DNA of 54,340 nucleotides from Pseudomonadota bacterium (GTDB lineage Bacteria; Desulfobacterota; Desulfarculia; Adiutricales; JAGVGV01): positions 1 through 54,340 of the forward strand of contig JAHJTB010000047.1 of assembly GCA_018830135.1 (NCBI GenBank). The letters are read 5' to 3'. Shown here in pieces: positions 34,194 to 37,249 of the stretch (positions are counted from its first letter, which is position 1; every line of letters begins with the position of its first letter). The position numbers and the translations under genes were made by a program. Under the pieces are notes generated by a model, which saw only the letters and a list, made by a program, of their open reading frames with translations, ran no database searches and was not told the origin of the DNA.

Positions 34194-35105
34194 ATGAAGG
34201 TCTTTCTGACCGGCGCGAGCGGCTTCGTGGGCCGGGGACTGGCCCGGTTCCTGACCGGCCAGGGGCACCAGGTCCTCCTCCTGACCCGTTCGGCCGGAAA
34301 CCGGCCCGACCCGGGACCGGGCTCGTCCTGGGTCGAGGGGGACCCGACCCGGCCAGGCCCCTGGCAGGACGCGGCGGCCGAGGCCGAGGCCGCGGTCAAC
34401 CTGGCCGGAGAATCCATTTTCACCCGCTGGACGCCGGAGATCAAAGACCGCATCCTGGAAAGCCGCGTCCGGGCGACCCGCAATCTGGTGGACGCTCTGA
34501 CCTCCCGAGGCCGGGCCACGGTGCTGCTGAGCGCGTCCGCCGTGGGTTATTACGGGTTTCGCGGGGACGAAGACCTGGACGAGTCCGGGACGCCGGGCCG
34601 GGACTTCCTGGCCGAAGTCACCCGCCAATGGGAAGCGGAAGCCCTCGGGGCCGAGGCCCGGGGAGTCCGGACGGCCGTCATGCGCTTCGGCATCGTCCTG
34701 TCCGCCGACGGCGGGGCCCTGGGCCGGATGCTGCCCCTGTTCCGGGTGGGCCTGGGCGGCCGTCTCGGCTCGGGCCGCCAATGGTTCTCCTGGATTCACC
34801 GGCACGATCTCGTCCGGGCCGTCCAGTTCGTTTTCGAACGCCCTGAAGCCAAGGGGGCCTACAATTTCACCGCCCCCCACCCGATTACCAACCGGGAGTT
34901 CACCCGGGCCCTGGCCCGGGTCATCGGACGGCCGGCCATCCTGCCCGCGCCGGGTTTCGCCGTTCGGCTGGCCCTGGGGGAGTTCGGATCGGTTCTGCTG
35001 GAAGGCCAGAAGGTCGTCCCCCGAAAGCTGCTCGACCTGGGCTTTGATTTCGAGTTTCCCGAAATTGAACCCGCCCTGAAAGACCTGCTCGCCCCGAGGG
35101 ACTGA
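34194..35105 (+). CDS. TIGR01777 family epimerase (YfcH/SulA-type NAD-dependent)
   Basis: A 303-residue extended-SDR protein with the nucleotide loop FLTGASGFVGRGLARFL, AAVNLAGESIFTRW, the ARNLVDALxx/ATVLLSASAVGYYG segment with the YYGFRGDE catalytic region, and the C-terminal TIGR01777 pattern VVPRKLLDLGFDFEFPEIEPAL. The physiological substrate is unknown. It follows the CNB gene by 10 bp and may be carried on the same transcript. Confidence 0.9.
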   Translation: MKVFLTGASGFVGRGLARFLTGQGHQVLLLTRSAGNRPDPGPGSSWVEGDPTRPGPWQDAAAEAEAAVNLAGESIFTRWTPEIKDRILESRVRATRNLVDALTSRGRATVLLSASAVGYYGFRGDEDLDESGTPGRDFLAEVTRQWEAEALGAEARGVRTAVMRFGIVLSADGGALGRMLPLFRVGLGGRLGSGRQWFSWIHRHDLVRAVQFVFERPEAKGAYNFTAPHPITNREFTRALARVIGRPAILPAPGFAVRLALGEFGSVLLEGQKVVPRKLLDLGFDFEFPEIEPALKDLLAPRD

Positions 35106-35142: not shown

Positions 35143-36693
35143 ATGACCGCTGAACAAGACCGGATTCCCGCTGGCTGCGCATCTTCGGGAAACGGACGGG
35201 AGGTCCGATTCGAACGTCTCTTCGCCGCCGCTCTCCTTGCCTCATGCACGGACCTGCCCGACCCGGAGCGTTTGGAACGCCTGGCGGCCCTCCCGCTTTC
35301 CCGGCCGGCCGACCCGGCCGAATGGGTCTTCCAAGGGAAAAGGCCCTCCGCTCGTCGAATCGAATCGGCCCGCCTCCTGGCCAGGACCTGGATGGACTCG
35401 GGCCTGCGGCTGATCGAGGTCCCGGCACGGGCGTCCGATCCTCCCGGCCGCCTGAGATCGGCCTTTGTCCGGGGCGATACGGCCCTCCTGGACCGCCGGC
35501 TCTTGGCCGTCCTGAACTCGAGAAAACCCCGGCTTCCCGCCCCGCGGGACCGCTGGGTCCGGGCGACTGCGGCCGCGATCCGGCAAGCGGACCGAAACGC
35601 CGGCGGTCTGGTCACCAGCCTGGGCAACGATCCTTATGAAATGGCGGCCTACCTGGCCCTCGATCTTGGAATCCCCCAAGTCGTCGTCTGCGATGCCCCG
35701 CTGCCCTGGATGGGCAGTCCGACCGCTCCGGCCCGCTTTCTGGCCGAGCACGCCGAACTGGCCGACAACGTCCGGGTCCTGTTTCTGTCCCCCTTTTCAC
35801 CCGGAACTCAACCCCCTCGGGCCCAAAGACAGGCCAGGCGCGACGCCTGGGTGGTCGGGCTGGCCGAATCCCTGGTCATGATCGAAGTTCGGGCCGGCGG
35901 CCACATGGAACGCCTGGCCTCCGCGGCCCTCGGTCGGGGCGTTCCGGTTCGGGTCCTGATTCCTAACCGGGCGGACCGCTCGACCGAGGGCAACGAGACC
36001 CTGATCCGGGCCGGGGCCATGACCTTTCGGCTCGCCCCATCCACACCGCCTTTAGGCGGCCGGGCCGCCGAGCCGCCTACTCCGGCCCGGCCCTCGGCCC
36101 AACGCCGTTTGGGCGCGCCGGCGGAGCCCTGCCTGTATCACTTCACCCGCTCGTGCCCGGGGCCCTGGCCCGGCCAGGCCCGCTCGGAATACTACCGTTC
36201 CCTGGCTGAAAGCCGGGACGGCGCGGCCCACGAAGCCCGGGACACTCTCCTGCGCATCCTGGACGAAAAGACGATTCGGGGCGGCAGCCGAATGACCCGG
36301 GGGCCGGTTCGGGCGGTCTGCTTCACGGCCCGGGAATGGGGAGCCTTGCGGGAACTGGTCCGTTGGCGCAAGGCCCTGATACGCTGGACCCTGGAGCCGT
36401 TCGGCCTGGCCCTGCCCCGCCGGGCCCTCCTGGAACTCGGCGCCCGGCCCGTGGTTTACGGAGACGAATCGGTCTGGCGAACGCTGCCGGAGGCGGAGCG
36501 GTTCCGTTTTCAGTTGCACCGGCCGCCCCGCACGAACTGGCGCATGGAAAAGGAGTGGCGGCTGCCCGGCGACCTGGACCTGGAGGCCATCCCTTCCGAT
36601 GAAATCGCGGTCCTGGTCCCCACGGCGGCCCTGGCCGATGAAATCGCGGCCCGCTACAACATGAAAACCATGGTCCTGGAAGGGTTCGCCTGA
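35143..36693 (+). CDS. Two-domain protein: DprA-like Rossmann fold joined to an unassigned C-terminal domain
   Basis: A 516-residue protein I cannot assign to a named family. Residues about 112-275 resemble DprA/LOG-type folds: LLDRRLLAVLNSRKP, DRWVRATAAAIRQADRNAGGLVTSLGNDPYEMAAYLAL, then RRDAWVVGLAESLVMIEVRAGGHMERLASAALGRGVPV. A Pro/Arg-rich linker (299-326) leads to a second domain (330-516) with LYHFTRSCPGPWPGQ, AVCFTAREW, PVVYGDESVW and NWRMEKEWRLPGDL, ending in an LVPTA strand. This part recalls ADP-ribosyltransferase-like or AbiGi/DUF2971-type sequences only loosely. A DNA-linked or defence role is speculation. A short palindrome inside codes part of the linker. Confidence 0.55.
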   Translation: MTAEQDRIPAGCASSGNGREVRFERLFAAALLASCTDLPDPERLERLAALPLSRPADPAEWVFQGKRPSARRIESARLLARTWMDSGLRLIEVPARASDPPGRLRSAFVRGDTALLDRRLLAVLNSRKPRLPAPRDRWVRATAAAIRQADRNAGGLVTSLGNDPYEMAAYLALDLGIPQVVVCDAPLPWMGSPTAPARFLAEHAELADNVRVLFLSPFSPGTQPPRAQRQARRDAWVVGLAESLVMIEVRAGGHMERLASAALGRGVPVRVLIPNRADRSTEGNETLIRAGAMTFRLAPSTPPLGGRAAEPPTPARPSAQRRLGAPAEPCLYHFTRSCPGPWPGQARSEYYRSLAESRDGAAHEARDTLLRILDEKTIRGGSRMTRGPVRAVCFTAREWGALRELVRWRKALIRWTLEPFGLALPRRALLELGARPVVYGDESVWRTLPEAERFRFQLHRPPRTNWRMEKEWRLPGDLDLEAIPSDEIAVLVPTAALADEIAARYNMKTMVLEGFA

Positions 36694-36792: not shown

Positions 36793-37013
36793 CTTGTTCG
36801 CCTCTGGCGGGGTTAGGGGGGATTTCCCTAAAAGCGCCATATGCTCCACACCGCCGAAGGCGGGCAGGCAGAAGTGATACCCAAAGAGGGCGGCCTCATC
36901 AGCGGGGCCGGTTTCCACCACCCACCGCCTTGGCAAGCCAGTTTCCAAACCCAATAACCTTTTGGCTCCCAAAAGGACGGATACTCGCCAAGACGGTATG
37001 TATCAATAAGCTT

Positions 37014-37039
37014 GTTGGGTTACGCTTCACTAACCCAAC
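37014..37039. repeat. Palindrome GTTGGGTTA/TAACCCAAC between direct repeats
   Basis: A 9-bp perfect inverted repeat with an 8-base loop. The sequence type (GTTGGGTTACGC...AACCCAACCTACGG) is a common dispersed palindrome in many bacterial genomes, from memory. Two identical 14-bp segments flank it 73 bp apart. Confidence 0.5.
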
Positions 37040-37086
37040 CTACGGGACTGAGGCTCTTCGCCAAGACGGTACCTATAAGCACCGAC

Positions 37087-37120
37087 ACTGCGAGGAGCAT
37101 AGCGACGAAGCCGTCTCGGA
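37087..37120. repeat. Diverged single copy of the GCGAGGAGC dispersed repeat
   Basis: ACTGCGAGGAGCATAGCGAC then GAAGCCGTCTCGGA shares the core of the two arms at 3902-4087, with two changes in the centre and more downstream. Confidence 0.5.
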
Positions 37121-37249
37121 TGGACCATGATAGAAAAGCGGTCCTATATCAGAACGGTGTTCAGCGCACAAACCGGATCGGGCGTCATCATTTAAGACCT
37201 GAAAACGCAGGAGCGCCACAGGCCTAGCGAGGCGGATGAATCGTTCGGG

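Follow-up and report, generated by a model that had tools for sequence, protein, structure and literature searches.

DprA binds single-stranded DNA (ssDNA) and interacts with RecA, and DprA-like proteins also serve as the antitoxins of the shosTA, syrTA and rqlHI systems, with resistance to phages T7 and lambda being conferred by a DprA-PRTase pair (PMC9122126, PMC4670107). Among these antitoxins, ShosA has been reported to bind DNA and to counteract its toxin, probably promoting recombination (PMC12593503). In ShosTA, PsyrTA and RqlHI, the DprA-like antitoxin (ShosA, PsyrA or RqlI) is built on a Rossmann module with an N-terminal extension and is encoded alongside a second gene for a separate PRTase or helicase-PRTase toxin. 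The protein described here shares the extended DprA-like module but carries in cis, with no such toxin neighbour seen, a domain related to the phage-defence family AbiGi (PF10899). This family takes its name from the lactococcal AbiG system, none of whose proteins showed toxicity on expression in E. coli (PMC3985639). While the linking of DprA-like regulators with conflict-associated domains is already known, a single-polypeptide DprA-AbiGi design is apparently undescribed: our literature search found no paper joining AbiGi and DprA, although the SLOG survey (Burroughs et al. 2015) might already mention the architecture.

The gene lies in a 54,340-nucleotide stretch of Desulfobacterota DNA (hereafter the window), and its features are collected in Table 1. 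The ORF begins with ATG, is free of stops and frameshifts, is present as one copy in the assembly, and contains all the motifs on which the original prediction of a two-domain protein was based. The fusion is conserved as one protein in approximately 40 genomes, many of them Desulfobacterota; the carriers located by a separate scan comprise Desulfobacterota, Candidatus Lindowbacteria, a Candidatus Hydrogenedentota MAG, a Myxococcota-labelled MAG and Planctomycetes. Of 59 relatives sampled from the order and class, 4 contain near-full-length homologues lacking internal stops, and a 395-genome sample of the phylum provided about 17 further fusion genomes; the copy in Desulforhabdus sp. TSK is apparently divided across contig ends. 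The existence of full-length, stop-free homologues in other genomes rules out both a frameshift artefact and a chance reading frame, and the concern that homologues might always lack the C-terminal domain through a frameshift proved unfounded. A pseudogene can be ruled out on the same intact and conserved ORF, and a phage origin was rejected after a search of viral contigs found no relatives.

Table 1. Features of the fusion gene and its immediate surroundings (window coordinates).
Feature	Position	Strand	Basis
Upstream neighbour, epimerase/DUF1731 protein (context)	34194..35105	+	Synteny conserved in two relatives within the order
Fusion gene, DprA-like/AbiGi-like, complete, 516 aa	35143..36693	+	Intact ORF and full-length homologues
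Helical N-terminal domain ahead of the Rossmann domain, residues ~18-85	35194..35397	+	AF2 helices 18-33, 40-48, 58-63, 70-85
DprA/ShosA-like Rossmann domain, residues ~88-296	35404..36030	+	Pfam PF02481 below cut-off, hhalign, Foldseek
NSRKP motif, residues 125-129, aligned with DprA GSR motif	35515..35529	+	Alignment
RRD...MIEVRAGGHME motif, residues 230-256, aligned with DprA RNR...VVEA	35830..35910	+	Alignment
Pro/Arg-rich linker, residues ~297-327	36031..36123	+	AF2 pLDDT ~46 at residues 301-320
AbiGi-like C-terminal domain, residues ~328-516, compact	36124..36690	+	hhalign, PADLOC AbiGi in relatives, AF2
Invariant H333 codon (LYHFTR motif)	36139..36141	+	H in 39/39 fusions, 11/11 stand-alone relatives, 7/8 AbiGi proteins
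EKEWR motif, residues 469-473, E-x-E-W-R	36547..36561	+	39/39 fusions, 11/11 stand-alone relatives, 8/8 AbiGi
Dispersed intergenic repeat segments 3' of the fusion gene (context)	36930..37235		Genome-wide matches

The N-terminal half is DprA-like, yet is not a canonical DprA. Pfam DNA_processg_A (PF02481) aligned to the window protein with an E-value of 5e-6, at 23.1-26.3 bits against a gathering cut-off of 29.6, and matched 8 of 24 family members (best E 1.9e-10). Compared by hhalign with the true DprA proteins that related genomes encode, this half scored 97.5% (E 8e-12, residues 85-296), and all mismatched pairs (the N-terminal half with DarT, AbiGi or DUF2971, and the C-terminal half with DprA) fell below 1%. 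For the AF2 model of the full protein, computed from a 24-sequence alignment (pLDDT 86, pTM 0.85), the best Foldseek match in the PDB was ShosA (8zva, E 2.2e-12), whose 304 aligned columns are long enough to take in the helical N-terminal domain; the DprA structures 3uqz, 3maj and 4ljk were matched at E 1.4e-10 to 1.2e-8. The PADLOC PsyrA model recognized 8 of the 24 relatives (best 1.3e-11, with the window protein itself at E 0.029) and the ShosA model recognized 4. Sequence profiles and fold are thus in agreement, and the DprA-type Rossmann domain first proposed from motifs in this half is borne out by its structural matches to both ShosA and DprA.

What the fusion has in common with DprA/Smf is the Rossmann fold, a GSR-like NSRK, an RNR-like RRD and roughly 200 residues of homology, whereas its motifs are altered and an AbiGi-like domain replaces the C-terminal half. 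R127 of NSRK(P) is aligned with the arginine of GSR, and the RNR motif reads RRD or RDR in the fusion proteins; within the extended motif D234 is invariant in our alignment, and R250 and G253 are retained in at least 90%. The lysine of the DprA YPK motif, which we take to be K133 of HpDprA (PMC4489622), is not kept, P193 occupying the aligned position. Judging from these substitutions, canonical ssDNA binding by the N-terminal half may be altered. Canonical DprA was in any case rejected as the identity of the fusion, as a separate true DprA is encoded elsewhere in the same genome (contig C498).

The C-terminal half is related to the AbiGi family. Pfam and NCBIfam searches gave no match to this domain in the window protein, which fails to reach the gathering cut-off of Pfam AbiGi, and relatives match that model only weakly; the first pointers to AbiGi came from stand-alone relatives and from plasmid proteins carrying AbiGi-family or DUF2971 annotations. 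When the C-terminal half was compared by hhalign with Pfam AbiGi members gathered from the phylum the score was 98% (E 2e-13), as opposed to 51-54% for DUF2971 and 0.3% for DarT, and the PADLOC AbiGi model matched 4 of the 24 relatives (best 1.6e-5). A PDB sequence search with the protein and its profile yielded nothing useful. AbiGi, DUF2971 and the fusion C-terminal domain have the motifs H-x-T, CF(T/S) and E-x-E-W-R in common. The fusion differs in being joined to a DprA-like half, in bearing a PGPWPGQ-containing insert that the alignment places in fused domains and not in stand-alone relatives, and in its surroundings, where a search for genes shared between neighbourhoods recognized no partner that might be AbiGii. 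The earlier hint of an abortive-infection-associated sequence can thereby be narrowed specifically to AbiGi, with hhalign, PADLOC, motifs and tree in accord. To our knowledge no mechanism has been described for AbiGi proteins.

All 39 fused C-terminal domains form a single clade (SH-aLRT 100), and the fusion therefore has a single origin. None of the 39 fusions departs from H333, R336, E469, E471, W472 or R473, and the His and the E-x-E-W-R motif are also retained in the stand-alone relatives and in nearly all AbiGi proteins, as expected for an active site. Mean pairwise identity is 39% for the C-terminal domain versus 23% for the N-terminal domain, the former being higher in 99% of pairs, a pattern that suggests an effector under constraint and a sensor that is diverging.

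A likeness to ADP-ribosyltransferases (ARTs) had also been suspected in this half from its YHFT and EKEWR motifs, and of this idea weak Foldseek matches to phage proteins with YHGT-like motifs remain, whereas neither a significant PDB match nor a DarT profile link was obtained. The model of the C-terminal domain is confident (pLDDT 88.8, pTM 0.85), and the weak PDB list obtained with it includes 3b82_B and 1s21, which we take to be ART folds, at TM scores of about 0.23-0.27, too low to be persuasive. The best matches from the viral library were unnamed phage proteins, among them one of SP-15 (A0A127AWL2, E 0.012, probability 0.99) and gp532 of phage G (E 0.039). The latter has no Pfam match, and its sequence (YHGTS...HVYLGTS...GEFQIP) resembles the H-Y-E pattern of ARTs. 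This Bacillus phage G family comprises at least three ART-like paralogues with HGT-type motifs, gp532 (L155:22422-22886) and gp336 (L157:5995-6468) among them.

Membership of the DarT family (PF14487) was rejected on the hhalign score, which speaks against a DarT-type enzyme but not against the fold, since known ART families likewise fail to match one another in such comparisons. In ARTs such as DarT and in the fusion domain, a His motif, a middle strand and a Glu motif succeed each other in the same order. No profile links were found from the C-terminal domain to RES, DUF3990 or the phage G HGT-motif proteins, but known ART control pairs were equally blind and the RES set contained several mis-picked ORFs, so that these profile comparisons are uninformative. 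We regard the ART fold as a lead provided by the predicted model, and not as a result. It is an unlikely thought that the fusion is a DNA-activated ART in one polypeptide, in which a DprA-type sensor of ssDNA or DNA ends would switch on an AbiGi/ART-fold catalytic domain in functional analogy to the DNA-dependent PARPs.

To place the fusion in its genomic setting we compared approximately 38 fusion neighbourhoods by simple longest-ORF calling, a procedure by which small neighbour genes may be missed. Neighbours were found to be clade-specific housekeeping genes that differ between clades, and no recurrent PRTase, helicase or other toxin partner was seen across the set, suggesting a stable chromosomal gene as opposed to a mobile defence cassette. 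Seven loci (L036, L039, L042, L043, L048, L049 and L060) have a BPL_N/glutamine-amidotransferase-like gene in the same orientation, 1-5 genes ahead of the fusion; in L036 it overlaps the start of the fusion ORF by 5 bp. Other fusion loci share YchF or Obg (the latter named by eye). Six Desulfomonilia-type loci (L037, L041, L044, L052, L065 and L067) possess a RodZ-like HTH gene just upstream of the fusion and ComEC at a distance of 3-4 genes on that side. A gene for a type IV prepilin peptidase is adjacent or near in most of the six, and in several it is located downstream. An uncharacterized protein of ~113 aa is also encoded upstream of the fusion in five of these six, L041 being the exception.

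The ComEC and prepilin peptidase setting makes a link to DNA uptake possible in that clade, and would suit a natural-transformation factor, i.e. a specialized DprA for imported ssDNA whose usual C-terminal winged helix has been replaced by the new domain. We nonetheless consider this explanation very improbable, as the ComEC setting is missing from the window and from other clades, the window genome has its separate DprA, and competence is unproven in these organisms.

Stable housekeeping loci would also suit a non-catalytic genome-maintenance factor, whereby a DprA paralogue would load or protect DNA in repair or recombination and the AbiGi-like domain would act only as a protein- or nucleic-acid-binding module, in keeping with the labelling of AbiGi and ShosA as antitoxins. 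Endonuclease III and a PolX-like ORF (identified by eye) are among the window neighbours, a true DprA is present besides the fusion, and ShosA reportedly counteracts its toxin through DNA binding and probably recombination (PMC12593503). Against this, neighbours vary between clades, and the invariance of the H/R/E-x-E-W-R residues exceeds the conservation of the putative DNA-binding half and is a pattern seen more typically in catalytic than in binding sites, leaving such a factor somewhat unlikely in our opinion.

The same neighbourhoods bear on the suggestion that the protein serves in defence. A single-gene abortive-infection system, with the DprA part sensing phage DNA and the AbiGi-like part shutting down the cell, might be argued from the matches of both halves to defence-system families of PADLOC in relatives, from the phage resistance given by a DprA-PRTase pair (PMC9122126), and from a patchy distribution in which the other fusions are spread thinly over the sampled phylum genomes. 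We found no contextual support for it: the fusion is a lone, single-copy gene amid conserved, syntenic housekeeping genes, with no recognized defence-gene neighbours and no relative in viral contigs. A defence-island or toxin-partner setting was therefore rejected, and an anti-phage role is in our judgement improbable.

The repeats noted on the 3' side of the gene are real, but as dispersed intergenic repeats and not as a local array. Segments of this region (roughly 1-68, 84-114 and 120-250 of the query) were matched 48 times within the same assembly, an Rfam search returned no match, and the only local repeats near the gene were one pair of 19-nt direct repeats. With the repeats dispersed genome-wide and nothing tying them to the fusion gene, a role for them was rejected.

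A stand-alone AbiGi-like gene was observed in a different setting, namely a core operon in which it separates ybeY from lnt in each of the seven members of one family that were sampled. The order is alaS-phoH-ybeY-[AbiGi-like]-lnt, alaS being visible wherever the flank extended far enough, and several genomes have overlapping or nearly abutting ORFs (L078-L080 and L023-L029; e.g. L080:9769-10305 on the + strand). This slot is the ybeX/corC position of E. coli, and the placement hints at a housekeeping, RNA-related role for the AbiGi-like domain.

Our preferred reading, to which we assign a probability of about 0.45, is that a single gene encodes both a nucleic-acid sensor of the DprA/ShosA type and, under its control, a domain that is AbiGi-like and probably enzymatic. 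While we regard both domain assignments as secure, DNA binding, catalysis, the ART fold, the coupling of the domains and the physiological role are inferred. Such a cis-linked sensor and actor is suggested by the reported DNA-binding and antitoxin roles of DprA, ShosA and their relatives. The N-terminal module, helical and Rossmann domains together, would bind a nucleic-acid signal, most likely ssDNA or DNA ends and possibly a nucleotide, and the signal would pass through the linker so that the DprA-like module controls the C-terminal domain. The latter would probably act as an enzyme through its invariant His...Glu-x-Glu-Trp-Arg site, an ART-like fold being the leading guess, with a nucleic acid or some protein of the cell as its target. 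The output could be a response to DNA damage or foreign DNA, for example growth arrest or protection. Besides the altered DprA motifs and the lack of a significant PDB or DarT match, further observations count against a sensor-effector arrangement: its nearest named relatives (ShosA/PsyrA and AbiGi) are annotated as antitoxins and not effectors, and no partner gene or conserved operon was found to support a pathway. As both named relatives are called antitoxins, and as the lactococcal AbiG proteins are non-toxic in E. coli (PMC3985639), a role as a regulator only is a serious competitor.

Understanding of how DprA-like proteins are tied to toxins is only just starting. A fixed and ancient fusion implies that an AbiGi-type domain works downstream of, or jointly with, a DprA-type nucleic-acid sensor, and it points to H333, R336, E469 and E471 as candidate catalytic residues. 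Should the C-terminal domain be an ART, a chemistry could be assigned to AbiGi and perhaps also to the widespread DUF2971, and if the DNA-activated form of this idea were true, AbiGi (and DUF2971) proteins would be ART-fold enzymes.
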